From Turritopsis dohrnii (Eukaryota > Cnidaria > Hydrozoa > Anthoathecata > Oceaniidae): a stretch of 64,000 nt of DNA. The stretch is taken from the NCBI GenBank assembly GCA_027922465.2, contig BQMF02000788.1:47178-111177 (forward strand), read 5' to 3'. Below are positions 22,826 through 58,115 of the stretch, one piece after another. Numbering within the stretch: position 1 is the first letter of the stretch; each line of letters starts with the position of its first letter. The position numbers and the translations under genes were made by a program. The notes beneath the pieces were generated by a model. The model did no database searches and was not told the DNA's origin. It saw only the letters and a program-made list of their open reading frames with translations.

Positions 22826-24266
22826 TAATTCGCAATTGAGCATCCCACTTTTGTTTTAGAGAGTGATAAATTTACTTTTTTTTCACGGTCAAATCCTTCT
22901 TATTTTTTCCCTTTTCGTTGTAAAGCCATGTAGAGGCGACAGACACTTTTTTTGATGTTACGTAATCTAAGTGTGACGTCTAAATTTTTAAACCAATCAA
23001 AACGCAAGAAATTATTTTTTTGCCAATTTCATTGGTTGCCGATTTCCAAAAAATTAGTTCGTTTATAACCGATTTTCATTATCGCAGTCGCAGAAATACA
23101 GATTTGTATACGTGCTGCTTATTAAACTGTTTTAGTTTAACTTTTATTGTTATTGTATTTTAGATTTTCTTTTAGATTAATAAAAGAATAGGTATAACCA
23201 CATGCTTAGGTGAGTTTTTAAACAGATGTTGTTTTTTTATATATAGGTTTTTCAGAGGAAAACGAAACGAAGAACGAGATGAAGAAAGTCATGAAGAAAG
23301 TCTATTTTTATTTTACGAGCTGTTTACGTATTTCTTTTTATAGTTATCAAATAGTTATGGGAGTGCAGCAGTAGAGTAGTGTAAATGAAGTTGAAGTTGT
23401 TTAAAAATGGCTGCAGAAAGGATGCTGTTTATTTACATTGGTGAAGAAAATGGTTTTACTTCTTTTTGGAGAGAAATTGTTTGGAAAAGATATAAAGTAA
23501 TATACGTGAGTACATGAGTCAAACGGATTTAATAAATACAGTGTTAAAAGAGAATAAAAACAGAGTTAAAACGATCAAATCATTAAGATGCATGTCCCAC
23601 GAGCAGTTACTGATTTGTTTTGGTAACGAAATTGCTGTTCCTTATTTTATTTAATTCAAAATGGCTCCACAGTTATGAAGTTACGAAGAAAGCATTTTTA
23701 TGACTTTCACTGTATAAAAATGGTAGTGGAATTGCAGTAGAAAGCAAAGAGAAAGTGTATTTTTACAATAGGAAAGTATGCTGGAAAGTTAATCGAGTGT
23801 TATTAATTTGTTTACAGGTATGAAATATGGAAAGTACAAGAGTTTAGAAGTGTTTGATAATTGCTACAGAACATGATCAATATTGTTTACTATCATGATG
23901 ATGTGAATTGGTATTGAAAGGTGAAGTTAAAATAGTATCTATTTAGTTAAAACACAGTTAGTATTAGTGGATACACTAGTAACCCGTGTAAAATTTTTTT
24001 ACAGGTTTTGATCGATGTGAGCTGAACAGAGGGAAAGGCTTAGTATAATGAATTTAAGTATAATAAAGTTCCTCAATTGCTTGGAATGTAGACCAGTACA
24101 AAAATATCAAATGAGAGGAGCGATTTCAAACAACATGGTAGGTTGACGTGATTTGGCTACGAAGAACTATTTACTGAATCGTGACAATGGAAGTAAAAAA
24201 AGATAACAGATTGACAACAAACATTTATTCTCAAATAAAAAACAAATATACAAACAACGAAATACT

Positions 24267-24333
24267 AATTCTACGCTGTAAGAAACATTATACTTATACT
24301 TTCATTTTACCCTGTTTCTTACAGCGTAGAATT
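24267..24333. repeat. Perfect 20-bp inverted repeat
   Basis: AATTCTACGCTGTAAGAAAC at 24267-24286 and its exact reverse complement at 24314-24333 flank a 27-base spacer. The stop codon of the micro-exon gene lies inside the right arm. It could fold as a strong hairpin in DNA or in the transcript's last exon and 3'UTR. Confidence 0.85.
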
Positions 24334-25569
24334 ATTCAAAATTTTTATAATATTTTTCAATAGATTATTTTTATTTTTTTTATTATTATTATTTTTTTTA
24401 TTGTATATATAGTCGGGCCGGTCCCGACCACCATTTTTGGACCAAACCCGAAAGGCCGCCATTGATTGGGAGCCCGGGTTTGTTTCCCGGTAACGGGCAA
24501 AATCCACATACGTGAGTTCTAAACAAAATCAATAGAAATTAATAGTTTACCGCAAATACAATAAGTTGATGTTAGATTCTACAAATTAAATCTTACTTTT
24601 TTCACTGTTAGTTTCGACATCGAGATCTGAAAAAATATCATACATGTGACTGATCAAAGAAGACACTTAAATGAACTATGTGTGGCGCAAAATAAAATCT
24701 ATTCATAAACTTACTATTTGCGCTGGTACTTGGGACCGGTTTTCCAATTGATGAAGGCTTTCCAACATCTAAAAACATATGGAACATAACAGTTACAGAA
24801 GTGTTAAGAAGAGATACATTATACATTCATTAAAAATAAGAATATTTGCACTCTTACTATTTGCAGTGGGCGCATCCACATCCATTAGATCTGAAAAAAA
24901 TATATAACCGTGCCTATATGTACTGATCACTGCTCAAAGAATGGTATTGTTATACATGAACATGAACATGATTACGAAAACTCACTATTCACATATTTGC
25001 TTGTTGTAGCATTATCTAAAAAAGTTATATGCGTATATATCTACACCCATAACATATGAAGGAAGGAGTCATATGAATGAAAGGCGTCATATGAATGAAA
25101 CATATATATTATCTAGCTATTACTTAGAAAGCTTACCAGAACGGGTTTTCTGTATGGGCTGTGCCCGTTTAACCATTTTCATTACTAAAAATAAAATGTT
25201 TATGAATCAAACTATTATGTATCAAACATGATTTCGTAATATGAATTTCTTTCAGCTTCCTTCAGGGTCTTCAAAAGGTATCATAGAAATGTAGTTATGT
25301 TTAATTGCATACCTGGTTTCTTTTTGTCATATTGTTGTAACTCTAAAAATAAAGCAGTTAAAACCATAGTATCTTCTTTAATGAAAAAGCGGTGAAAGTA
25401 AATAATGTAAACCTTACTTGCAGCACATTCTGTTTCGAATACTAAAATATAGGAGGAAGATATATTTATTAGAATGCAAATAACTGAAATGCAATAGAAA
25501 ATCCCAGTTAAAAATGTACAACTTACTGAGGTCTGTGTTGGCTGCAGCCATTATATTTTTTTTTTATTA
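24319..25569 (-). CDS. Micro-exon gene carried in the Helitron, unknown function
   Basis: Nine exons are inferred on the minus strand: 25569-25527 (ATG at 25551), 25441-25418, 25342-25313, 25184-25137, 25015-24986, 24890-24858, 24768-24715, 24626-24597 and 24518-24319. Seven internal exons are 24, 30, 48, 30, 33, 54 and 30 nt. Each is preceded by TAG or CAG and followed by a GTAAG, GTATG or GTGAG donor. All eight introns fall in phase 1, so any exon can be skipped without changing frame. The product would be 157 residues, hydrophilic, with Lys/Thr/Ser/Asn-rich pieces (KMVKRAQPIQKTRS, VGKPSSIGKPVPSTSAN), FARYRETNPGSQSMAAFRVW, and an Asn/Lys-rich tail. There is no signal peptide or known domain. 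Being between helicase and the Helitron 3' end, it is cargo, either captured or native. Confidence 0.6.
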
Positions 25570-26122
25570 CTAAAATTAAATAAAAATTTCATAGTTTTAA
25601 TTTACAACTCTTACAAAAATAATGCTAAAGATACTACATTACTAAACTGAAAATATATCTCTTTCAAAGAGATGCCCTGACTTTTGGTTCATGAATTGCC
25701 TATGGAGATGTGTTGCTATTGACTAAAAGCTCGTGATTTTCCATGCGCAATTCATGGTAACAGAGTACACGACGGGAACGTAAGTCAATGGGACTTGTAC
25801 TCCACCTAAAGAAGAAATGAACATATCATGCGATATAAGTTGATTACATTTCTTCAGTATGAAATATAGCAGTTAACAGCTGGCACCTTAAGGAACAGTC
25901 ATCGTGTATCAGAAAAAACGGAGACAGTAGTTCTACTATAAACAGCATTAACGAACCACCTAGTGGATAGAATAGATATCACACTGGTAAAGATACCCAA
26001 AGGAAAACTATACACAGTGTAATAATCATCCATCACATCCGTCACAATAATACACATGTTACTGAACTTAAAAAAGGGCACAGATTATGGCAAACTGCAC
26101 AACAAACAAAACAATAAATAAT

Positions 26123-27847
26123 TTACTGTAAAACTTGTGGGAATACAACATTCTGTGTATACAACTTCCCATTGATGTAACCTTGTTTACCTGTGGCAGC
26201 AACTTTGACTTTAACATTATCAAATGCCTTTGCCCTAGAACAGGCTACATATAGTTGACCATGTGAAAAGCACGGCCGTTGTAGAAACAAACCAATTTTT
26301 TCAAATGTTTGACCTTGACTCTTATTAACAGTGAAAGAATAAGCCAAACGAATCGGCAGTTGTCTACGTTTCAAAGTGAAAGGCATACCTGTGTCAGAGG
26401 GTGACAATTGTACCCTAGGTATGAAAATTGTTTCTCCAACAGCTGACCCTGTCAAAACGTCAGCTTTAATAAAATTCTGCGATAGTTCCCGAACAATCAA
26501 GCGTGTCCCGTTGCAAAGACCCTTCTTGATGTTCAAATTTCGTAAAAGCATAATTATTGCTCCAACTTTAAGTTTCAAACAATGTGGAGGCATACCAGAT
26601 GGTGTGATGCTGTTTAAAAAATCAAGCGGATAATTTTGTCGCTCGTCCTCATCATCACAATCAACTTCATCCGCACTATAATAGCAAACTGGTTCACCAG
26701 GCAATCTTTCCAACACCTCATTATTAATTATTAATGACTGCTCATTTGTAGGTGTCAAAATAGCAGTCGAAGCATATTGATGAGGTTCCAGGCCGCCATA
26801 CATGACTGAAATAAGTGATGTGTTTTCAGACACGACACAGCAATCTGGAATTTCAATGGCACCTTTAGCAGGATCATCTTGTTTAAATGGTAATTCCCCA
26901 TTACCCAATTGCAACAGCCACTGACAAAATTGTTGCTCCTCAGGTCTAGCTCTCATGTTTTGAGTTAATGAGAATTTTGACACCGAACCCCACAATGCAG
27001 AACTGGTTAAACACACCTCAATAACATCAGTAGGTTTTGCTTTCTTTACAACAGGTAAGCATTGACGGAAATCTCCGCCCCATAACAGTACTTTGCCACC
27101 AAAGAGAGTATCGTTTTTACAAACATCACGAAGTAATCGATCGATGGCATGAAAAATATGAGTGGAAACCATTGTCACTTCATCGATGAGAAACAGGTCT
27201 ACACTACGTAAGTATTCAGCATGTTTTGATGTCGGAGTTACATTACAAACACTGTTTTCTAAAACAGGAACAGGCAAACGAAATAAGGAATGCAATGTAC
27301 AACCACCAGACAATAAAGTGGCTGCAATACCTGTATATGCAGCAGTAGCGACTTTCCAACCTCTGGCCCTACATGCTGCTATAACATAGTTGTATGTAAA
27401 CGTTTTACCTGTGCCAGCTGGTCCATCAAGATAAAACAATGTTTCAGGTTGTGCCAAAGCGTTTTTTACATTTGAAACAGCAGATAATATTGCATCAGCC
27501 ACAGCCACCTGCTGCTCATTAAGCAGAGGCCTTACCTGTTGTGTCTGGTCAATGTATAAGTTTACATCAACCTCTTCCTCGTCAATTTGTTCAATTAACT
27601 CAGGAAGGTTTAATTGCGTTAAGGACATACCAAATTGTTTGAGTATGTTATCGATATATCCCAAAACCTTTTGCTCAGCTTGAGTAGCAGGCAATGTGCG
27701 CGCATAATCCTCGCACAATTGATCCTTGAATGTATTCCACAGATCTAACGGATTCAATGGCTCACAGTGTGTCAATATTGTGACGAACAATTGCCTCAAT
27801 TGTTGAGCATTTGGAATGTAGATGCCTCTTCCAATGTATTGTGCCAT
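26123..27847 (-). CDS. Helitron helicase domain (SF1, Pif1-like)
   Basis: It unwinds DNA for rolling-circle transposition and is normally fused to Rep. Motifs in order: Walker A GPAGTGKTF near residue 142, Walker B-like LFLIDEVTM near 217, LLWGGDFRQCLPV near 255, LTQNMRARPE near 295, AYSFTVNKSQGQTFEKIGLF near 505 and LYVACSRAK near 533. The end YINGKLYTQNVVFPQ is typical of the family. The N-terminal NAQQLRQLFVTILTHCEP is the usual Rep-helicase junction. The preceding residues, starting MAQYIGRG, are an out-of-frame reading of the Rep end, so the annotated ATG is probably not a true start. Confidence 0.9.
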   Translation of the reverse strand: MAQYIGRGIYIPNAQQLRQLFVTILTHCEPLNPLDLWNTFKDQLCEDYARTLPATQAEQKVLGYIDNILKQFGMSLTQLNLPELIEQIDEEEVDVNLYIDQTQQVRPLLNEQQVAVADAILSAVSNVKNALAQPETLFYLDGPAGTGKTFTYNYVIAACRARGWKVATAAYTGIAATLLSGGCTLHSLFRLPVPVLENSVCNVTPTSKHAEYLRSVDLFLIDEVTMVSTHIFHAIDRLLRDVCKNDTLFGGKVLLWGGDFRQCLPVVKKAKPTDVIEVCLTSSALWGSVSKFSLTQNMRARPEEQQFCQWLLQLGNGELPFKQDDPAKGAIEIPDCCVVSENTSLISVMYGGLEPHQYASTAILTPTNEQSLIINNEVLERLPGEPVCYYSADEVDCDDEDERQNYPLDFLNSITPSGMPPHCLKLKVGAIIMLLRNLNIKKGLCNGTRLIVRELSQNFIKADVLTGSAVGETIFIPRVQLSPSDTGMPFTLKRRQLPIRLAYSFTVNKSQGQTFEKIGLFLQRPCFSHGQLYVACSRAKAFDNVKVKVAATGKQGYINGKLYTQNVVFPQVLQ

Positions 27848-30718
27848 TCATCATCATCTTGAAGAAGACCTCTTGCAATACATGCTTCACGGAACGTATC
27901 AAAAACCACCCCATTGAACGTGCGCAAATACTCGAATGATGTAGCACCAGGGATGTGAAGCAATAAAACACGAAGGAAAAATCTTTCTCCTTCTGTTGGT
28001 CTTGCATTGTATAGTCGAGCAATTATTGGCTTATATGTTTTATCTCTTGCTTTCCATTTTTTTTCCTTATCATGAAATACATAATGATATGGAATGTCAG
28101 GAAACAGATATTGTCGGGCATCAGGATCTTCAACATTCAATTTAAACCATGCTGTGAGGTGAGTGTCTCTCATAGATGCCCTGTCAGCAGCTGCATACTC
28201 TTCACCAGGTTGAAAATAAACTCGTTGAAGATCTGGCAAATGCACTGCCAATCTTTTGATACAGTGTGATTTCTCATGCATAGAGAACTCAAAGATTCTC
28301 CACAGAGCTTCAGGTGCACTAACATATCGAGCATCTAAAAAAGTTTTAATTTCATCATATTGCAATTGTTCGTTAATTTCGACATGCGCTCGATCATGTC
28401 CTTTATATACGTATTTGAATAAATATTTAACACTTTTTATAGAAGTACAGGCCTCCAAATTTATATGCGCATTATATTTCTTTGATAACCAGGGACAGTA
28501 TGGAACTACCCATCGATTATCTAAATCTACATTTTTAACCCTCACAGTTCGACCATTATTTCGTCTGCGATACAAAGGATAGCCATTAACATTCATTTGT
28601 GTTGCATCACAGAATGATTTGGGAAAGTCTTTGGTACAGTTGCCATCATCTCCCATACAAACAGAAGTCTCATTGTAAATCCCGCATGGACCATGTATCA
28701 TACACGATTTGATGATGTTGTGTAGTTCTGGCTCCTCATCGGGATCAGGGATTTCAGCACATATCAAGCTGTCAACATCATCAGCATTTTGTAATTTATC
28801 CTCTTGTGCTAAATGAATAAGAATATGTGCATGAGGTAAAGAACGCTTTTGAAATTCAATCACATAAAGGTGAGAAATTGTTTTCCCCAATACACCATTT
28901 TTTATGACATCATTTAAAAGTGCTTTCAATTTCAAATTAAAAACACGTGCAACCAAGTCAGGTCGATAATGTGCAGGCTCATTATCTAAATTTTCGGTAA
29001 TTTCCTTCCAATTTGGATTACATGTAAAAGTGCAGAACAAATCAGGTTTTCCCATTTTAGTCACCATAGCCATTGCATCTTGGTAATTTTGTTGCATAGC
29101 TCTTGGACTGCCCTGAAAAGACGATGGTAATATCACAGGTCTGCCTGCATTTAAACCTCTATTTCCTGCAACATTGGCAAGATGATCAATCAACCCTTGA
29201 TATTGCTCAACACGTAACACTTTTTGGTTTTTCCGAATATAGTTGAGACGTTCAGATTCCACCTTACAGTAACAGTCAACCGCGAATTGTTGAAATAATC
29301 TTTTACCTTTTAAGATGGGATTAAAATCATTTCTGTATGAAAACCTATAAGTATAATATTGTAATGCAGTTGTGCGACACCGACTACCTGTAGCATATTC
29401 AGCTACATGAGGAATATCTGTAGTCCATCCAGACTCTCCCCTTGGAAAAAAGACTGGATAAACCATTGGATCCAGATGTGATGAATTTGTTGGTAGACAT
29501 TGCAATGGTCTGTCTCGAGGATAAACAACAATATCCCGAAAGGCAGGTGGTGCACCATCTTCACCAACAAAAACAGCTGCTACTTCATCATGGTGTGGTA
29601 GATTGTAACGCCGCCGATCGCCACCACTCCTTAGGTGCATTCTAACCTAAATTTAAAAATGTAAGATTTTGAAAATAAATGATTTTAAAAAAAACCTAGA
29701 AAGATTACTGATTAATAACTCAAAATTTTACCAAAGATGGTTGGCGATTTTGCTCTTGGGCAAGCCGTAATTCCTCAGCTTCTACCTCACTCATGTATTT
29801 GTATGCAGCAGCGTAAGGACTTTCTCTAATAATGATGTCTTGCAAATTTTGCATTACTTCAGGCGAACAACCTTGATTTTCAGGTCTTGCCATTCTTTCA
29901 TTGAATGCATCCATCCCATCATAAATGTACAACTGACCATATGATGGAGGCACTCCTTCTGACGGATGTAGATTCCCTGTACGGTGACATACCTGACCAT
30001 TAATTCGAAAGACAGGTGGTCCTCGACCTGGTGGTACAGCCATCTTTGCACCCATCGACGCAAAAGCGACAGAACTGTTAAACTTTCGAATATTTTCTTG
30101 AAAGTTCTTTGCTTGATTTGTATTACCTACTAAAAGATCTTTAAGATCATTAGGGTAATTAATGTCATTAAGGTGTATCTTACCATTATGACAACATTTG
30201 AAATTGCTTTCATCAGCAAACATTTTAGCACCACAGCGTTGACAAACCTTGTCCATGAGGCCTAAGTAATGTTGCTCAGGCAATTGATCAGGTTGACGCG
30301 CAGCACAATGCAAACTTAATGTAGCCCGTCTAGCTCGCATACGTTGCATATTTCTATTCCGCCTAACTAATCTTTCGTCAGCGTTTTCATTTTGACGGTT
30401 CTGAACGCTTCTTTCAGCATCGCGATTCCTACGGCGCTCATTCTCAGAAATACCTTGAGAATTATGGAGATCATCCATGTTATCATGCGTTTCACGACGT
30501 CGCGCAATAGCGACATCTTCGTGTGCAAACCTACGTTGGATTACTGATCGAATTTGTTGTTGATCAGGTGGTTGCAAAACAAATTGTCCATTCCTAAAAG
30601 TTGCTGGAATGGCAGGGGCAATAGTATTGCCTCTTCCTATATTATACATGACAGACAGTAGTAATAATAAGGAAACTTTAGAATAAATATAACTACCAAA
30701 TTGTTGATTAACTCCCAA
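27796..30718 (-). CDS. Helitron Rep (HUH endonuclease) with zinc-finger N-terminus
   Basis: Two exons are read: about 30718-29732 and 29646-27796, with an 85-nt intron (29731-29647; donor TTTG^GTAAAA, acceptor TTTAG^GTTAGA) that keeps frame. Exon 1 has a basic, Asn/Arg-rich region and a zinc-finger-like VCQRCGAKMF...KCCHNG. Exon 2 starts GDRRRYNLPHHDEVAAVFVG, has the HUH motif in SLPHAHILIHL, and two catalytic tyrosines in KYLFKYVYKGHDRA. It cuts and rejoins strands at the element ends. The end TFQMLNN and stop arise from a frame change to the helicase near 27806. The start is uncertain: the first ATG in exon 1 is near 30652, and a 24-nt micro-exon may precede at 30726-30703. Confidence 0.85.
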
Positions 30719-30894
30719 CCCTGAATAAAATAAAAGTTTGACTTTTATGAAAATTAGAAACGCAATTTAAATATAGGTTTCATGAAAGAAAAACATAACT
30801 GTAACACATTGTAACAATCACCTGAGAAAACTCTGAACTGTTCTTAAAATATCGTCAGACTCTTTTTAACTTTCTGCTTTATATCAATTCTGAA

Positions 30895-31120
30895 TAAAGA
30901 ACCATAAAAACACACTTTCATTTTCCATAAATCATCTTCCGAAATTAACAACAATAATAAATTACCTCGTAAACTTTACTGGCTTTAATCTTTACTCTTT
31001 AATCTTTTTCTGTTTCTCTGAATAAGAATTAAAATAAGACACTTTCATTTTCCATTTCATTTCTATCGAAATAAACAACAATACAAACTTACCTCATAAA
31101 CTTTACTGGCTTTCGCTTTC
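30895..31120 (-). repeat. Tandem duplication in the Helitron 5' region, with repeated donor sites
   Basis: Two copies of roughly 118 bp share ACACTTTCATTTTCCAT, AACAACAATA and ACTTTACTGGCTTT. On the minus strand each contains CCAGTAAAGTTTAYGAG followed by GTAA. The downstream copy looks like a 52-nt exon at 31017-30966 after TTATTCAG. These may be 5'UTR or leader exons of Rep. Confidence 0.45.
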
Positions 31121-31163
31121 TTTTCTTTTCTTTTCTTTTCTTTCTTTTCTTTTTCTTTTTTTT
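31108..31163. repeat. (TTTTC)n low-complexity tract
   Basis: A pyrimidine-rich microsatellite in the Helitron leader. Confidence 0.8.
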
Positions 31164-32452
31164 ATTGTTTGAGTAATCACCTCCTTCACTTTTCAATACG
31201 AAAATGAATTTGTTTACATTTTGAACAAATTTAGTTGCTATATTTACAAAACGTTCGAAACGATAAAAATAAAATGCAATGTAAAGGTATCTGTCCTTTA
31301 CTAATCGTAGAAAAATATTAACCGTGGTCTTAAACACCTTATGAATAATTGACCGCAAAAACGACCCGAAATTTTAGAGAGTGAAAGCGTGAAAAAAGCG
31401 GATGCACAGCGCGTATTAGTATATAGATAAAGGATAAGAGGGATGTTTACTGTTGTGTTTTGAATTTTCCAGCTGAGAGGAGCTTTGAACTGGAAATAAA
31501 AAATGGCTCCACGAATGTTTTCATATGTTAAAAATTTTTCACCTATACTAATTCTGTGATTACATTTGTGTTTTTAATTATTATTTTTAAGGTTATACAT
31601 TTTCAAAGTTTCTTTTACTTTGTTTTGTTATTCTTTAGATTTCGTCATAGCATGATTAGGTTTTTTGTATTTGTTTTTTTAATATTTTGATCTGTTAAAA
31701 TGGAAATGAAGCACATGATGGGTTATAATGTCGAGAGGGTTACTTAAGATTTACTTACTTAATGACTGTGCAATGAAACTATCTTACAAAAAATAAGTGT
31801 TGTTGGCTGTATTTTTCTTAAGTTTATATTTTATCGCGTTTATGCATATTTTGTGTTATGGTAATCGTTTACGTACTATGCCTAGGTATATAACTTTGAA
31901 TTTATGATTTTATTTGCGACTTTTTATCTTTTGTGTAAATTTTTCTTCTTAGTTATTGTTTTTAGGATAAATACGTACTTGAATTTCCTTTTTTTTTTTG
32001 TTTCTTTTTTTTCTTCGGTATTACAATTGAAACATTATTCTTTTAGGCAATAATAAAAAAAGCATAAAGAAATGAAACTCATGGTTTTAATCATGATGTT
32101 GATGGTTTTGGGAAGAACTAACTATATCATTTCAAAAATTCATTAATGGTTGCCGTCCAGAAGTCCAAAAGAAAAAGTTGGAAGGTATCATTTTTGTATA
32201 ATATTCAATGTTTGGTTTTGTATGTCTTAGTAAACGGTTCTGTATTATATATTGCATATTTTTACATTAGAGTTACTTCTCTTCTGCGTATGAATATATA
32301 TTCTGAGCCATGTTGCTATTTGTTTCTGTTTTAAATTTTCTGAATGCAAGAAATGAATTAAAAATTAATGCTGAAAAGAAACTTTTGCAAGAGTTCAATT
32401 CTGCGACACAACGCATACTGAACATGGGTGGCAAGCGCCGCTGCCTGGGATG

Positions 32453-45416: not shown

Positions 45417-47223
45417 ATGTCATTTTTGAGAGAAGTCGTTAAAAAAAATGCAGTTGTTACCGAAAAGTCGAAAGACTTACCGCCGGAAAACCAAGGTAAA
45501 AATATAAGCATTATTGGATTTATGTTGTTTTTTTTCTTATAAGCAGCCGGGTTGCTATAACCTGGAATCCAGATGTAAACATTTTCTCTTGGCACGCTAA
45601 AGCTCTAAAGTCTCAAGGAAAAACATGTATGGGTTGAACATGATTCTACTGTACCTTAAATGAAATTTCAATATTTCCGAGAGGCTGTATCAAAAATTGA
45701 ATTGCTTACATAAAAAGACATGTACAGTCTTTTTAACATTGTGTTTCTTGTTTTAGGTAACAGCACCAGCAAGTTGGCTAATGACACAATATTAGGCGCA
45801 ATGAATTTCGCACTAATTCAAAATGAGGAGAATGCCACCAATCGTAGAAGCCAAAAATATACTCAATATTCAAACAAAAATCGCTACGACATCGGAAAAT
45901 ATGCGGCAGAAAATGGAAACGCCAACGCTGTCCGGTTTTTCCAAAAAGATTTTCCAGACATCAAAGAAAGTTCGGTTCGCAATTTCAAAAAAAGTATTAT
46001 CAGCTTTTATCTATGCAAGGGAAGACAGGTGTCGATGTAACAAAGTCCATTCCAAAGACAAACGTAGGAAGACCTTTGATGCTGGGGCATTTTGATTCAA
46101 TGATTCAAACATACATCCGCTCAATGAGTAACCGAGGCGCTGTTATAACGTGGTCGATAGCCAATGCTGCAGCCAAGGCGTTGATGCAAAAATACCCTGG
46201 CATCGTTGGAAATATTGACATTGATTCTTCGTCTTGGGCACAAAGTTTGTTCCGCCGCATGAAGTTTGTCAAACGAAGGAAAACATCCAGCAAGGTAGAC
46301 ATTCCTGAAGCCGCAAGAAAAGAAATTGAATACGTGTTTCTATACGAAATCACTTTAAGGGTCGAGAAATACAATATCCCACCATCTTTAGTAATAAACT
46401 TTGATCAAACACCTTTAAAGCTTGTTCAGCGTGGAAATAATACACTTGCCAAAAAGAACAGCACGAATGTAACAATCGCCGGCTCTGCTGACAAAAGATC
46501 TATCACAGGAACATTTTCTATAACGCTTTCTGGCAATTTCCTTCCTGTCCAGCTCATTTACGGGGGTAAAACGAATCAAAGTCTTCCACGTTACAAATTT
46601 CCAGACGAATTTTCATTGAGCGTAAATGAAAAACATTTTTCTAATACCAAGGAATCTATTAAATTGCTCAAAGAAATCATCATCCCCTATGTCAAGAAAG
46701 AAAGAATAGCGCTGGGCTTAGAGACTGAACAAAAGGCTCTTGTTATTATGGACGTTTTCACGGGACAGATGACGGCAGAAGTCAGCAAAATATTCGAGGA
46801 AAGCAACATTCTAGTAACAAACGTACCACCAAACATGACCAAGTTTTACCAGCCTTTGGACCTCACTGTCAACGGAAGTGCCAAACGTTTCATGCCCATA
46901 AAATTCAATGGATGGTATTCAGATCAGATTACACAGCAGTTAGAAAGCGGACAGAAACTGGAAGATGTAGATGTAAAGCTGCGCTTGTCAATACTCAAAT
47001 CCCTTCACGCGGGATGGGTCGTCGACATCTACAATTGACGTCTGCCGATGGAAAGAAAGTAATCGAGAACGGATGGGTTGCTTCAGGAATAGCTGATGCG
47101 GTTCGTCTTGGTTTAAAAGAATTGCCAACATTGGATCCTTTCAGTGACATCGATCCTATTTTGGACGAGGATTCGACCAACCATTGTGCAACAAAAATAA
47201 TTTTATTGGAAACCAAGCTTTAA
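45417..47223 (+). CDS. Pogo-type transposase (DD35D), two frame changes
   Basis: Exon 1 is 45417-45495 (MSFLREVVKKNAVV). Exon 2 starts at 45757 after TGTTTTAG, phase 1. Exon 2 has NRYDIGKYAAENGNANAV and DIKESSVRNFKK (helix-turn-helix), then in the next frame NRGAVITWSIANAAAKALM, WAQSLFRRMKF (CENP-B-like second HTH), and the catalytic acids in VINFDQTPLKLV, VIMDVFTGQMT and FYQPLDLTVN. The end reads ASGIADAVRLGLKELP. Breaks lie in a run of seven A near 45990 and at 47034. Each fits one missing base. It cuts and pastes the element at TA sites. Confidence 0.8.
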
Positions 47224-48629: not shown

Positions 48630-51600
48630 TATTTATACAGGTTATTCTGCTTCAGTAGATATACAATATATACAAAATCAATATCTATGTATAATAAATA
48701 CTGTTATCAATGCGACACCTGTGCAAACGAAAAAAGAAAAAGAAAAAAGAAAAAGAAAAGAACAAAAATGATAAAAACAAAGTAGATAGCAAAAGTAATG
48801 AAGAGCCAGGGAATATAGGAGTGTGCAGCTATGCTCGGGTTATCTATAGGAGTTGATACTAAAAAAAAATATTTTTATAATATTATACATAATTAAATTA
48901 TTAAAATATATGTACATTAGAAATATTTATATATTATATAAATGAGAATTTATATTTTAAAATCAAATTCACTGACTAAATTTTTAAATGAAGTTAGGCT
49001 TTTTTGTTCACGAATGTTAGAACTAAGGCTGTTAAATAACAAAGCGCCTTGATAATAAGTTATTTTTCGACCTGCCTCTGATTTAATTTTCGGTAGGCGC
49101 AGTAGCCATTTGTTTCCTCTGGTACCCGTTACGTGTTTAATGAACACATATTTTTCATCACCAGCACTAATTGCCTTGAAAACATCAAGGGGGATTTTTC
49201 TTTGTAGGCGTGTTTGAAACGAAAGCCATTTCTTCCGACAATTTACAACCAACTTAGCTCTGATGTACAGCCATTCAAATTTTTCCAACCACGTATTACT
49301 CATACTACTGTAAACAGGATAGCAATAAAAAATGAGTGGTTGAATCATTGCATTGAATATCGTTTCTGCAACAGTTGGCGAGATTTGATAACGGATTTTC
49401 CTGAGCATGTTCAGCCTTGAACTAACGCGTTTGTACATGGCTTCAAGATGAGAATTCAGATTAAGATGTGAATCAAGCCGGACTCCGAGGTATTCATATT
49501 GGCCAGATTGATTGATAACGCTGTTGTTTATGACAATGGTAGCAATATCTTTACGTATTCGTGAGGCAAAAACAACGAATTTGGTTTTCCCCTTTTTTGG
49601 ATTAAGGATGAGACAGTTTTTGCTCATCCAGTGGTGAATTCTCTCAGCATCAGAATTTATACATAGCTCGATTTCAGGAATAGATTTATGCGAGTAATAA
49701 ATAACGGTGTCATCTGCATACATTAGTACTTTACAGTTTAGCGATTGCAGAGGGAGATCATTGATCAGGATGACAAAAAACAATGGCCCAAGGATCGAAC
49801 CTTGAGGCACACCATGAGTCACAAATTCTGGGTTTGATATGACTTCATTTTCATTTAATAGGTTATTATTTTCAAGATAATTAGTTAGTTGGTTGTATGC
49901 AATACGTTCAACCACTTCGGAAAGAATATTTAAAACAGAGATCGGACGGTAGTTATCAATATCAGCATGTTCATCACTTTTATATACAGGATTAATTTTT
50001 GCGATCTTTTCAACTGTTGGGAAAATTCCTGATTGAAGACTTCGGTTCACAAGAAATGTGAGTGGTGCTGCGATCTCATGAGCAACGTCTTTGATAATCT
50101 TGGCTGGAATTTGGTCATAACCAGTTGCTTTATTTGCTTTTGTCGCTTGAAGAATTTTCAGTGTGTCTTGTGTGTACACTGGGCTGAAAGTAAATATTGA
50201 GTTGGTTTGGTTCACATTTCGAAGGTATTTACGTTGGTTAAAAGTTTTCCATGTAAAGTTCACGATTGGAGAAGTCAAGAGACGTGACTTAACTTTTGCG
50301 AAGAATGTACAGAAGGTATTGGCAATTGACGCTGTGCCAGAGGTAAAATTTCCATCGATTTTAAAAGATGTTTGTACACTTCCCGTGTCCTTGGTAGGAT
50401 AACCCTTTTTGATGTGTTTCCAAAAGTCATTTGGTTGATTATGAGTCTCCCTGAACACAGCTCGGACGTGGTTGGCTTTTGCTGAACAGATTTTATTGTT
50501 AACGGTATTACGAAGTCTCTTATATTGATCCCAGTGGGCGTCTAAATTTGTTCGTTTAAATTGATCTAAATGGTGATCTCGAGAGACCATAAGCTGACGA
50601 ATTTCCCGGGTAAGCCACGGACTGGGTTTTCCGCGAACATATTTTACCTTTAATGGACAATGTTTGTTGATTGTCGATGAGACAAAGTGTTTAAATTGAT
50701 TCCACCCTTGTTGAAGTCGGTCTTTAAACACTTCTCCCATGGTAGGTTACGTAGTTCATTTTTCAGTTCCTCTTTGTTGTATTTCGAATAGTCACGTGCT
50801 TTGATTGTTTGTGATAAGTATCGTTTACAATTCATTTTTCCGATAACACCAATCATGCTGTGATCGCTGAGGCAATTTGTGTATACCAATCTGTCTGCAA
50901 TAATCGTTTTCTTGGTAGTGAAACAAAGATCAATGCACGATTTACTGTTCTTTGTTATTCTTGTGTATTCTTTAATGAGAGCTTTTATGTCGATATGGTC
51001 TCGTGGGACTTTATAATCGCAATTAAAGTCACCCAAAATAATTGTTTCTTTGTTCTCTGATGAAATAATGTTCAACATATTATCAAACTTTTGACAGAAG
51101 TTTTTATCGAGATACTTTGAGTTATCAGGGGGTCGATAAGCCGAGCAAACGAGCAATGATTTTGATTTTTGAACAAAAATTTCTATCCATAAGAATTCAC
51201 ATCCGTCAATTTCTAAATCATGTCTTCTGATAAACTTCACATCCTTTCGAATGTATATGGAGCCTCCTCCATGAGTCTCAATTGCACGATCTTTCCTCCG
51301 AAGTATGTACCCCAGAATTTCCAACTGCTTCTGTGTAACTGCTCTGTTTGTGTGCGTCTCTGAGAAACTGATTATATGAGGAGTGTTTTTCGAGTCTGAT
51401 ACAAAATTTTTGATACTTTGAAGTTTTTCAGAAATCCCATTGATGTTCTGATGTAAAATTTTCAAACCTTTCTTGTTCAGAAATCCTGATAATTTGGGGT
51501 CAAGCGCGTTGATAACAAACTCTGGCTCTGCAGGAGAACAATTCAAACAAAGATGTCTCTCTTCGTTGTTTATAAATTTGTCGTTCAAACATTTTAAATG

Positions 51601-51765
51601 AAATATATTACCACAAGTAAAGCAGTTTTCAGATGCTTGGTTCTTCCTTATATTTATAGTCTTTCTACAGGCATTACAAGAGATATTAATCTGTAATAGG
51701 GCGAAAAACAGCAGCAAAAAATTCAACAGCAAACCAACGTCCGACCGCACAGCTGCCATCTTTGA
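48561..51765 (-). mobile_element. LINE (PHD-endonuclease-RT) with 3'UTR and (AAT)n tail
   Basis: The coding region 51759-48950 is followed on the minus strand by a 310-bp 3'UTR and a tail of more than twenty AAT/ATT units at 48561-48630. The UTR recurs, 5'-truncated, at 20974-21268. The simple-repeat tail rather than poly-A matches CR1/L2-related LINEs. The true 5' end was not determined. Confidence 0.8.
48950..51759 (-). pseudogene. LINE ORF: PHD finger, AP endonuclease, defective reverse transcriptase
   Basis: Part 1 (51759-50650) has a hydrophobic start, a PHD-like finger (CNACRKTI, CFTCGNIFHLKCL, HLCLNC), then APE-type endonuclease motifs LKILHQNINGISEKL, ISFSETH, GGGSIYIRKDV, VCSAYRPP, ILGDFNCDY and LSDHSMI. 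Part 2 (50740-48950) is the reverse transcriptase: NKATGYDQIPAKII, YRPISVLNILSEVVERI, THGVPQGSILGPLFFVILIN and MYADDTVIYY. The parts are separated by a frame change near 50736 that fits one lost base. About 90 residues expected between NENE and FVTHGVPQG are missing in frame, including motif A with its catalytic Asp, so the enzyme would be inactive. Confidence 0.8.
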
Positions 51766-52186: not shown

Positions 52187-54307
52187 ATGGCAACACGAGA
52201 AGTGAACTATCTGAACACGATGTTAACTAACATACTAAGAGAAGTAAATGGAAATGCGTTAGATGGGAACAGAATCGATGCACTGTATGTATCACTGGAT
52301 CATATTGCGTGCAGTTTGAACCGAATTGCTTCTAATTTTGATGAAAACTTCCAAAGACAAGTCTGGGAGGTATTACAATTGCTTGGAGGTGGTAGCATTG
52401 CTGGTGATGATTATGGAAATAATTCATATAACAATTCGTTTCATCGTCCTTCCTTACTTTATGGCAGAGGCAGACCGAAATTTGATATCAAGGAAGAACA
52501 GTTGCGCTATCTACTTGACAATGGGTTCACAGCAGTTGACATATCTTCAATGCTTGGAATTTCATTAAGGACAACAAGACGAAAAATATCCGAGTATGGC
52601 CTAACTGGTAGACGTTCTATCATAAGTGATGAAATTTTAGATACAGAGGTTTCTGAAATTTGTAGAAATTTTTGTGGTATTGGTTACAGACTTCTTATGG
52701 GTCAGCTTTTACTTAAGGGAATAAAAGTTAGTAGGAGCAGAGCTATGGAAAGTTTAAGAAGAGTTGATCCACTTGGTGTGCTCGAGCGTGTACTGACTGG
52801 ACCTACTACACGGCGTACATACAGTGTTGCTGGGCCATTGTCTTTATGGCATATTGATGGTAACCACAAACTAATCAGGTATATAAAAGCTATATATAAT
52901 ACGTTTTATAAACGACGTGTTTCGTGCCAATTCACTTGGATGCACCTTTCATATAGTATTCTGGTTAATCTACCACATGCATTTACTAACATTGCCTTCA
53001 GTCACCAGAATTTGTTTTGTCTACTTATTTCAGTATAGTGCACTTGTCTTGATTCTATTTTATAGATGGCGCTTTGTTATTCATGGAGGAATTGATGGTT
53101 ACTCAAGAATTCCTGTGTTTGTACATTGTTCAACAAATAATTATGCAGAAACAGTCCTTACATACTTATTTATTTATTTATTTATTTATTTATTTGGTAT
53201 TGTTTTACGTGGCTAGCCTCACTCAGTTGCTATTGCATCTGCTTTCCAGGAGGGGCCACGGCTTAGGTTGGAGGCTCCGAAGTATTTGACACTCTCATGA
53301 GTGACACAAACCCAATCAAGGGCCTGTGCTCTTCTGGATGACCTTCCTGCAACACCCGATGTATCATCTACCCAATTTCCCTCACATGGCATGGGTCGAC
53401 CCGGCGCTATGGTACATTCACTTGCGCATGGTGAATCGCCGCCAAGGGGAATTGAACCCCGATCTCTCGCATGAAATACGAGAGTGATAACCACTATACT
53501 ACGGCGCCATTCTTCAAGAAAGCAGTAATAGAGTATGGGTTACCTTCAAGAGTGAGAAGTGACCGTGGTGGTGAGAATGCAGATGTAGCCTGGTATATGT
53601 TGCAGCACCCATTAAGAGGGCCTGGTAGACAAAGCATGATCTGCGGGAAAAGCGTTCATAACCAACGTATTGAAAGGCTATGGAGAGATCTGTTTCAGTC
53701 TGTGTTATCTCTGTATTACGACCTATTCTACCATCTGGAGGAGATACAAGAATTGGACCCATCAAGTGAAGTAGATTTATTTTGCCTGCACTTTATTTAC
53801 CAACCAAGAATTAACAATCACTTATCACTTTGGAAGGAAGGTTGGGTACGACACAAACTTTCATCTGAACACAATCAATCACCTATGCAACTTTATATCA
53901 GGGGACTCATGCAAAATGATGTGTCAGACATTCTTTATAGGCAAAATGAGAGGGAACCAGATCTGGTAAATTAATCCACATTTATTTCCAAATCTGTGAC
54001 ATTGAGTTCAGTCTATTGAGAATGAATCGAAAATGATTGATTGAATTAACATAAAGTCTGCTTTTATTTGAATGATAAGAGTTGCTATAACTTTTTTCTT
54101 TAGGTCGATGAAACATATGGAATAGATTGGAATGGTCCGTTACCTCCAAATGATGAAGATCATCAAGTACACGTTGAACCAATTCCAGAAATTCTTGATC
54201 CTGATTTGTTGAATGAGTTGAAAAGTACTATTAACCCTCTAGAAGAAATTGGAGACTTTGGTGTAGGATTATTCCGTCGAGCAAAGGCAATTGTAACAAT
54301 GATTTAA
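52187..54307 (+). CDS. Integrase-core (rve-type DDE) gene, disrupted by a SINE
   Basis: Exons: 52187-52878, 53066-53160 continuing at 53515-53965 after the SINE, and 54104-54307. Introns 52879-53065 and 53966-54103 have GT-AG ends and keep frame. The protein starts [13 protein letters not shown], has an HTH segment ([20 protein letters not shown]), and the integrase core: [12 protein letters not shown] (Asp), [29 protein letters not shown] (Asp) and [12 protein letters not shown] (Glu), then a long C-terminus ending [14 protein letters not shown]. This architecture is widespread in fish and cnidarians as an uncharacterised integrase-like gene; it may derive from an IS3EU-like transposon. Without the SINE the frame would be fully open. 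Confidence 0.7.
53168..53507 (-). mobile_element. tRNA-Glu-derived SINE inserted in an exon
   Basis: On the minus strand the head GGCGCCGTAGTATAGTGGTT folds as a tRNA with anticodon loop ATTTCAT (UUC, Glu), anticodon stem CTCGT/GCGAG and T arm GGGGTTCAATTCCCC. The acceptor stem has one mismatch. A 250-bp body and an (AAAT)n tail (53168-53195) follow. CATACTT (53161-53167) and CATTCTT (53508-53514) are the likely target duplication, and their positions preserve the host frame. Confidence 0.8.
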
Positions 54308-55963: not shown

Positions 55964-58115
55964 TTAATAATCGTGAAAACCTTCACATTCCAGTTCTAAA
56001 GCTTTAAGAATATTCTGCTGGAATGCATCCTCAGATGTCTCAACTGTTGGCAGCCTCAATGTGGAAACACATGCTTGGGACTTGATATATATACCCTCAT
56101 CAGGTTCCATAAATTCAATTGATATTTCTAGCGGTGCAAGGACTGGGATTCTATGAAATCCAGTTACAAACTTGAGAAGATCTTTGGCTGTATCTTCACT
56201 ACAAGTGGCAACAAAATTCTTAAAACGATTCAAAATAACCAATTGTGAAGCATTGATATCTTTGGCATCAAAACAAATCACTTTCAACAACTGTGATGAG
56301 GTAATGTTTGTTTCTGGTGAAACAAATGCATCTCGAAATTTCTCTGAGTTACATTTGATGAGCATAAACAGTTTAGGAATTTTCAAACCTTCCCGCAATG
56401 CTTTGATTTGCCTCTCCCGCTTTATAACTACTTCCTCATAAATAAGCATTTGCAGAAGTTGGTCTTTTGTTTTTCGTGTAATTGGGGTAGCTATGTCCCA
56501 TTGGCTGTTATTTACAATCTGTTCAAAGGCAGGTCCTTCTTCAGAATCAAATAATTCGTTAGTTTTTTGATCTGTTGGGGCATCATCAATCTTTTTTATG
56601 AAAGATTTAAGCATTGCTGTACCAGCATTGAATGGAATATCATCAGATGAGACCATTTGCAATAATTTCTCTTCAGGTTCTTCAATTAAAGCATCATAAC
56701 ACCAAGGGGCTAGACATGAAAATGTAGGTCCCTCTTGAAACATACTGTGTGCTATGGCAATACCAATTGATTTATAAATCATCAAATTAACTCCACATCT
56801 CTTGGGAATAGCATAACCATTGGATTCCTCAAAAAATTGTGCTTTGGATTCTTCAAAAAACTTTGAGAAGAACTCTATTCGTAAGGCACCAGCATCCACA
56901 CCTACTTCTCCATTAAAAACTACATGCAAACTTTTAAGGAGGTTATCAGGTTGGGCACATGCAGTTTTGTAAAAACAAATACCATTCCTCCATAAATGCT
57001 CTCGTTCGACCTGGAGTGTATACTGCCCATCTATGCTATTTTTGTTTCGAAAAGATTCAACTAGTTCTGTTAATGATTTGCTACTGTTATTGTCACAGTT
57101 GAATTCAACCAGTTCATCAACTACCTCATCAAAGGATTTCGAAGCTAAGAGGGATTCAGCATCATCTTTTGACAGTTTAGGAAACATATCCATTAAATTT
57201 TGATGGGAATTTGTTGATGATTTGCACGAATTAAAGCACTCTGGTATTGTTTTCTGTTCAGTGGAATGCTTAGTGCTACTACCACCCACACAATCATCAA
57301 TATGTGCTCTTATATCTCTGAAGGCAATTTTTACTCCACAATTGAGGCATGGTTGCACTAAAAGCAAATCTTCATCAGCAGTCTAAAAAAGAAAAAAGAA
57401 AGTTTGTGTTTTTGTTATAAAGTAGTGTAGACATCAATCATTAGTGCAAAATTTCACAATTTGAGACATACAATTCACTTACAGAGGGAGCAGCATTGTT
57501 ATCAGTTACAATATCTTTTTGCAGGGGTCTGACATAGACCTTTGATTGTCCAAAGATTGATTTCAGAAATTGTGCATTGTATCCATTTGGTGGAGGTGGT
57601 ACTAACTTGAGTGACTTTGAATAACGATCAGCAGCTCGCATGATCTCATATCCACCTGTTGATGCTAATGGGGTAAAACTATTTTTAATTGCTAAGTCCA
57701 TGATATTGCTATTATCAGTATCATCAACTGTAATTCTTTTTTCTCCCAAACCAGACATAGCTAACTGTACTTTTTCTTCTGTATCTGGAATAAATGATGC
57801 CAATGTTGAAGATAAGCACACACAAGTAAATGATAGCTTCCTAATGTAAGGCTGATTTAAAGGCCGTCCTCTTCTACCACGTCCCCGTACTGGATGGCGA
57901 ACCTGACCTCTGAAGAGATTTTGGTGTTCACTAAAGGTGGTTGATCGTGTTGTTGAAGGACCACTTGGTGGTACTGATATTGGTAATACAGCTGCATGAG
58001 AAGATGGTAGCGAACGTGTGGTTAGTGGTGTGGATTGACCTGCAGGCAACTGATTAACCAACTGCATTAAAGATTGCGCACATCGACGTAAAACATCATG
58101 ATGATCTTCACTCAT
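55964..58115 (-). CDS. HECT-type E3 ubiquitin ligase-like protein (G2E3-like), intact
   Basis: Exon 1 is 58115-57483 and exon 2 is 57382-55964. The 100-nt intron has GTAAG and TTTTTTAG ends and is phase 0. The product has 683 residues. It starts MSEDHHDVLRRCAQ, has an RG-rich patch (RHPVRGRGRRGRP), a conserved domain ending LKLVPPPPNGY and KVYVRPLQ, a C2HC (UBZ4-like) finger (CLNCGVKIAFRDIRAHIDDC), a CUE-like segment (NLMDMFPKLSKDDAESLLA), and a HECT domain starting near residue 330 with NGEVGVDAGALRIEFF. The probable catalytic cysteine is in QACVSTLRLP near the C-terminus. It probably transfers ubiquitin, with two ubiquitin-binding modules upstream. Closely related genes are multicopy in cnidarians and sponges. 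Whether it is ligase-active is inference. Confidence 0.8.

Follow-up and report, generated by a model that had tools for sequence, protein, structure and literature searches.

The Helitron and its predicted micro-exon gene

The 64,000-nucleotide (nt) stretch of Turritopsis dohrnii DNA analysed here (contig BQMF02000788.1, positions 47,178 to 111,177; the window, whose numbering is used throughout) carries a Helitron transposon on its minus strand, and within this element, behind the helicase gene, lies a predicted gene of nine mostly very short exons, here called the micro-exon gene. The element is a canonical Helitron, sharing with this class Rep and a PIF1 helicase, a 5′ TC, a 3′ hairpin with CTRR (here CTAG), and insertion at A^T without duplication of the target; the micro-exon gene is an addition to this set. 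Similarity between the window element and other copies stops at 31427–31428 and at 23975, and an empty site was located in another sequence (L020, 2232–2833), to which the joined flanks align at 95.9% over 603 columns. The DNA flanking the window Helitron is itself repeat sequence, hence the empty site in L020. The element and its main parts are the following (ORF, open reading frame; aa, amino acids):

23976..31427, minus strand: Helitron, 7,452 bp, 5′ end TCTATATACTA, 3′ end CTAG, A/T target; from similarity to other copies and the empty site
29720..30718, minus strand: 332-aa ORF lying 5′ of Rep within the element, without Pfam match
27796..29640, minus strand: Rep ORF, Helitron_like_N (PF14214, Pfam E 2.9e-59)
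26123..27847, minus strand: PIF1-type helicase ORF (PF05970, Pfam E 1e-55), in a frame different from Rep in the window copy
23981..24007, minus strand: 3′-terminal hairpin immediately 5′ of CTAG, read from the sequence

A single open Rep–helicase frame of 1,172–1,212 aa is found in 46 of the 74 entries of a Rep search of the genome, with stops inside the match in 8 of the 46. Because Rep and helicase sit in two separate frames in the window copy, as opposed to one long frame elsewhere, this copy may be non-autonomous, and the original prediction of an autonomous Helitron as carrier is not upheld. Its placement of the gene between helicase and Helitron 3′ end is right, with the end itself corrected to 23976, 343 nt past the stop codon. 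The exons, read from the exon chain and from comparison with other copies, are:

25527..25551, minus strand: exon 1, 25 nt, with ATG and donor gtaagt
25418..25441, minus strand: exon 2, 24 nt
25313..25342, minus strand: exon 3, 30 nt
25137..25184, minus strand: exon 4, 48 nt (51 in other lineages)
24986..25015, minus strand: exon 5, 30 nt (27 in others; duplicated in frame in L033)
24858..24890, minus strand: exon 6, 33 nt (27 in others)
24715..24768, minus strand: exon 7, 54 nt, the most variable exon
24597..24626, minus strand: exon 8, 30 nt
24319..24518, minus strand: exon 9 (last), 200 nt including the stop; core LTYVDFARYRETNPGSQSMAAFRVWSKNGGRDRPDY, Lys/Asn linker, and LLKNIIKILNNSTL

The original prediction of nine minus-strand exons at this place is borne out: all can be read, from the ATG at 25551 to the TAA at 24321–24319, and join to an open frame of 157 aa. 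The predicted introns measure 75–128 nt and are, as had been proposed, all in phase 1, with internal exons of 24–54 nt in multiples of three. All seven internal exons are symmetric and flanked by an AG acceptor and a GTRNG donor, and five of them do not exceed 36 nt; the last exon accounts for 200 of the 474 nt.

Such a chain is rare by chance. A scorer of phase-1 chains gives the window locus 46.5, a value reached neither by dinucleotide shuffles (any chain in 5/300, best 14.3) nor by other real ATG starts on both strands of the window (any chain in 12/400, best 13.7). When exons are instead chosen by splice-site strength, blind to frame, six of the seven internal exons in the window copy are unchanged; the exception is exon 8, which is read as 53 rather than 30 nt in several copies including the window, apparently owing to a competing acceptor 23 nt upstream. 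By the same reading, 89 of 98 internal exon lengths are divisible by three across 14 copies, which are not independent of one another.

Copies of the gene in the genome

A DNA search of the genome, in which the best 40 of 267 candidates were scored, returned at least 89 matching stretches at 69–100% identity, corresponding after joining by eye to about 39 places including the window. Sequences taken for reading comprised 20 long, 10 short, and later 12 divergent ones, plus 2 of a second Helitron family described below. An exon chain was recovered in 31 of 43 sequences, 18 of them whole, with 9–10 exons and an identical end point at the C-terminus. The parser used forces multiples of three, and unforced readings by alignment and by splice-site strength agree with it. 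The 12 sequences that gave no chain (L020, L026, L034, L038, L039, L041, L043, and L045–L049) have absent or decayed anchors; the gene in L043 was read by eye, outside the parser.

In the unforced reading of whole copies, exon lengths shift by threes: 48 or 51 nt for exon 4, 30 or 27 for exon 5, 33 or 27 for exon 6, and 21, 36, 45, 48, 54, or 60 nt for exon 7. The introns, unlike the exons, also change by lengths that are not a multiple of three. Two exons occur as in-frame duplicates, exon 5 in L033 and exon 7 in L036 (45 + 21 nt). Exon frames, on whose conservation in other Helitron copies the original prediction depended, are thus kept in many copies. In five close copies (L009 and L011–L014), the frame is lost within the Lys/Asn linker.

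A second family (B) has a Rep 85–86% identical to that of the window family (A), and carries the gene in the same slot behind the helicase in the two copies read (L051 and L052). The micro-exons of L051 measure 19, 24, 27, 24, 24, 27, 30, and 30 nt and are unlike those of family A, and the last exons of both families have the core DFxxYRxxxPGxxSxxAFxVWxxNGGRD in common. Some parses are doubtful, namely the 63-nt exon 8 of L044 and certain parts of L052, and a 419-nt intron of L051 may conceal extra exons.

Genomic matches to the last exon number at least 155 for family A (query, the joined L029 protein; 150 of the 155 were used for linkage to Rep) and at least 150 for family B (the best 150 of 785 candidates). 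In the Rep search, the best 72 of 2,428 candidates were scored, so that copy numbers are lower bounds. The last exon lies behind Rep on the same strand within 8 kb in 41 of 46 Rep-bearing copies of family A, although two of the 41 sit 7 kb from Rep and may be from another insertion, and in 25 of 26 of family B, for which only last-exon places on contigs of interest, rather than all 150, were counted. Because the last exon has this position behind the helicase in both families, the gene can be assigned to the transposon lineage. The original prediction had left the choice between host capture and transposon ownership undecided and had proposed a genome search for further exon copies; many were found, and with 66 of 72 Rep-bearing copies having the last exon, the micro-exon gene is, judged by its genomic distribution, a standing component of the Helitron lineage and not a one-off capture. 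That it is a real gene owned by the Helitron appears very likely.

Three last exons in one orientation, 4,034–4,035 bp apart, occur at G000:C271:112606-120869, a contig with no Rep match listed; the arrangement resembles non-autonomous Helitrons in tandem.

Splicing signals and conserved non-coding elements

The best evidence at hand for splicing comes from genomic DNA, in a decayed copy (L048) where intron 8 is absent precisely at the predicted splice sites and intron 7 is retained. This copy, which has CCG instead of CAG before its exon 8, may be a partly spliced retrocopy or a case of intron loss. A search for intron-less copies with the joined exons 1–8 of the window gave no match spanning two whole exons among the best 40 of 60 candidates.

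A polypyrimidine-AG sequence lies upstream of the ATG in the copies read, which suggests an additional 5′ exon or a trans-spliced leader; trans-splicing occurs in hydrozoans. Two conserved blocks lie between the helicase gene and exon 1, and an inverted repeat spans the end of the coding sequence:

25753..25794, minus strand: conserved block 1, after the helicase stop and preceded by polypyrimidine-AG; from cross-family comparison
25673..25693, minus strand: conserved block 2, without change between the window copy and L051/L052
24313..24334, minus strand: 5′ arm of a 22-bp inverted repeat, holding the stop codon; from the sequence
24266..24287, minus strand: 3′ arm of the 22-bp inverted repeat; from the sequence

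Within its 42 nt, block 1 differs at a single position between the window copy and L051/L052, in surroundings where the DNA of the two families can barely be aligned, and in L049 the helicase end directly adjoins it. The two blocks may represent a promoter or leader, and block 1 could also be a further exon. The C-terminal residues NNSTL are encoded within the inverted repeat. Among the copies, both arms are changed jointly in L043, L030 has 8 mismatches in 24, and the second arm was not found in L031 and L044. A portion of the repeat reappears inside intron 8 of L036.

Predicted protein and searches for relatives

The predicted protein is Lys/Asn-rich and of low complexity, with a net charge of +12 to +15 and one or two Cys residues in six family A copies. 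No signal peptide was seen in a simple hydropathy scan (not SignalP), where the maximal 11-residue mean within the N-terminal 50 residues is 0.85 for the window protein. A structure model of the last exon has three helices at modest confidence (predicted local distance difference test, pLDDT, 75.5; predicted template modelling score, pTM, 0.44), and no fold match was found for it in the PDB. The PDB sequence search with query A1 gave no relative, and a large protein database, in which animal proteins may be few, held none at E 10 or better among about 8,000 candidates each for queries A1 and A2. A Pfam scan of the proteins of two copies gave nothing above cut-off; a match to ERO1 (E 0.11 and 0.01, below cut-off) was regarded as chance. 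A likeness of MAAFRVWSRN to the HMG box of SOX proteins was rejected, being unsupported by Pfam or by fold. In the residue comparison, Pfam scan, and last-exon search, the proteins of the L027, L029, L031, and L036 lineages were used without one residue that their 51-nt exon 4 encodes at its start, and that of L036 also without its second exon 7. Our best guess is that the gene encodes a basic protein, accessory to the element, whose tail is variable.

Divergence of the last exon and the micro-exons

The last exon and the micro-exons differ in their mode of change. For the last-exon core, nonsynonymous divergence (Ka) is 0.01–0.12 versus a synonymous divergence (Ks) of 0.03–1.1 in the 15 pairs without L050; in pairs with L050, Ka is 0.31–0.38 and Ks is saturated or 2.4. 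The core is under purifying selection. Of ten family A pairs, eight show more divergence in the micro-exons than in their own introns (p ≤ 0.0081), and the one family B pair shows 19/175 differences in micro-exons versus 48/1030 in introns (p 0.0019). After removal of CpG and stratification by base, the excess holds in five of six pairs, with odds ratios of 1.45–2.97 over the six. Amid the variable stretches, the residues MAAAN.D, MVKRA, MDVD, and NLDV are retained. L031 (exon 4) and L025 (exon 6), each with a changed acceptor, were left out of the Ka/Ks and divergence sets; for L036, the exon–intron divergence counts, raw and composition-controlled, exclude the duplicate of exon 7, and the Ka/Ks set excludes only the intron of that duplicate.

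Diversifying selection on the micro-exons is suggested by these comparisons, not proven, and a plain claim of positive selection was dropped, since Ka lies below Ks. Anchor residues aside, the tail would be moderately diversifying at best and nearly unconstrained at least; whether it is driven to change or change is merely tolerated is, in our estimation, evenly balanced.

Divergence is also patchy along the element. Compared with the window, L023 differs by 15–34% over Rep, by 0–3% from the end of the helicase to exon 6 (26828–24829), and then by 12–18%, a pattern that looks like recombination.

Comparison with known systems

The closest systems in build are the micro-exon genes of schistosomes and the bicycle genes of aphids, and in place, the RPA and OTU genes carried by other Helitrons. 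Schistosome micro-exon genes, as described in PMC8293314, consist of many short symmetric exons whose omission leaves the frame intact, and have raised dN/dS. The Helitron gene likewise has many short symmetric exons, but differs in that its protein is basic, without signal peptide by hydropathy, and transposon-borne. Exons in the schistosome genes are mainly of 36 bp or less, a size that five of the seven internal exons here keep to and the 200-nt last exon does not. Kinship with the schistosome genes, of which the layout reminded the original prediction, is not supported, given the lack of a signal peptide; the comparison was one of gene and protein features. Aphid bicycle genes, as described in PMC9168663, are host genes for putative effectors with many tiny internal exons, nearly all starting at codon position 2, and their structure persists as coding sequence diverges. 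The Helitron gene resembles them in its many micro-exons, phase-1 introns, and a structure that outlasts sequence; unlike them it is Helitron-borne. Bicycle proteins are secreted and have CYC motifs; in the Helitron protein the hydropathy scan showed no signal peptide, and one or two Cys are present.

Accessory genes of Helitrons and Helentrons are known, and PMC4067079 lists RPA, OTU protease, SET, and an endonuclease domain; the RPA gene of a mite element is intron-less, and hypothetical proteins are also drawn. Like these, the micro-exon gene is an extra gene beside Rep–helicase and recurrent within a lineage, and unlike them it is built of micro-exons and has no known domain, a contrast that covers the genes with named domains. 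No description of a micro-exon accessory gene of a Helitron or other transposon was found in the open-licence full-text literature, where the broader Helitron search covered titles and abstract openings; a review of Schistosoma transposons mentions Helitrons solely within classification.

Proposed role and alternative explanations

Based on the position, structure, and variation of the gene, the reading we prefer, and hold to be somewhat probable, is that of a Helitron accessory gene combining a constant last-exon module with a variable micro-exon tail, symmetric exons, and exchange of the 3′ part. The gene is encoded between helicase and 3′ end, and its transcript, we infer, would be spliced from about 7–10 mostly very short exons with phase-1 joins to give a basic protein of about 150 residues. 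The last exon, with its shared motif, would form the constant and probably helical module, and the micro-exons an N-terminal tail that is probably disordered, while recombination among Helitron copies would swap the 3′ part. With all internal exons symmetric, a change in length, a duplication, a loss, or the skipping of an exon can leave the frame unbroken. The constant module might serve replication of the element, or DNA or protein binding in the nucleus, and the tail might be pressed to change, for example to evade a host repressor or to distinguish Helitrons. A more far-reaching version is a system of modular diversity, driven by duplication, loss, recombinational exchange between elements, and perhaps skipping of the symmetric micro-exons. 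Every Helitron would then present a different variable tail on the constant nuclear module, as part of an arms race against silencing by the host or against other Helitrons; this version we consider rather unlikely.

Several points weigh against the preferred reading. The gene architecture is a reading of genomic DNA, the function of the protein is a guess, without a relative of known function, and the rule of three is broken in the decayed copies L030, L034, and L038 (for instance, exon 7 of 58 nt in L030 and exon 2 of 23 nt in L038). The compared pairs, a choice of the author, overlap in the copies they contain and are not independent; two family A pairs with L050 show no significant micro-exon excess (p 0.89 and 0.11), nor does the composition-controlled pair L027–L036 (p 0.26). 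In 20 of 21 pairs, Ka of the micro-exons is below Ks (L036–L037 has a Ks of zero), and Ka relative to intron divergence (Ka/Ki) is 0.73–3.34, with a bootstrap interval that excludes 1 in only three of the 21. Relaxed constraint on a disordered tail would give a similar pattern. Several of these points, namely Ka/Ki values that in many pairs lie near 1 and Ka values lower than Ks, as well as micro-exon four-fold sites that change about as fast as introns and the low-complexity Lys/Asn-rich protein, favour a plainer view, where the gene is real and the micro-exons are a disordered spacer whose rate of change is close to neutral. Selection would then act on the frame, the splice sites, and a small number of anchor residues, and there would be no arms race or regulated skipping. 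This is a serious though less likely alternative, against which stand the excess of exon over intron change, seen in raw counts, under composition control, and in family B, and the residues retained between variable stretches.

The excess could instead reflect slow introns, homogenised by gene conversion or by constraint on splicing signals, with the exons showing the age of the lineages. Tiny exons require strong intronic splicing signals, and the elements are recombination mosaics. In 20 of 21 pairs, micro-exon Ks by the Nei–Gojobori method (NG86) is higher than the divergence of introns, and four-fold sites of the last exon outpace the introns in most pairs. The latter also counts against the preferred reading, as exons may then differ from introns for other reasons too. 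However, short conversion tracts would need to end at each exon edge, and four-fold sites of the micro-exons roughly match introns at codons with the same first two bases, so that Ks there is partly inflated by multiply changed codons; we find this account quite improbable. Scarcely less so is a host micro-exon gene captured by the Helitron and carried as passenger. Captured accessory genes are on record for Helitrons and Helentrons in PMC4067079, and only 41 of the 150 listed family A last exons could be linked to a Rep in the list, with the neighbourhood of a minority of the rest inspected. Capture is opposed by the presence of the gene in two families with Rep about 85% identical, in most Rep-bearing copies, by purifying selection on the last exon, and by the lack of a relative in protein searches, though animal proteins may be thin in the database. 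A recent host capture was rejected as the main explanation because 66 of the 72 copies with Rep have the gene; the capture may, though, have been ancient, with the transposon making the gene its own afterwards. The least probable is a non-coding array, acting as a splicing decoy or as structured 3′ RNA of the Rep–helicase transcript. The inverted repeat spanning the stop, kept in many copies, and the conserved upstream blocks would fit such a role, but selection on last-exon codons and exon lengths in multiples of three would not.

If the preferred reading holds, the transposon would own a gene in which exon structure lasts longer than sequence, and this would mean that micro-exon genes arise in mobile elements as well as in the host genomes (schistosomes and aphids) where they have been seen so far. 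Hundreds of natural copies in one genome would be available for measuring exon gain, loss, and turnover, and the gene might hold a clue to how Helitrons evade host repression.

Other features of the window

The window has a G+C content of 30–40%. Outside the Helitron, it contains a DDE_1 ORF at 46013–47038, a long interspersed nuclear element (LINE)-like element at 48950–51759 with reverse transcriptase and endonuclease ORFs, and rva_4 integrase-core ORFs at 52187–53974 that overlap a tRNA-Glu call on the opposite strand (53436–53509). Further along, at 55964–58115, a HECT-domain ORF of 467 aa lies beside a 224-aa ORF without Pfam match.
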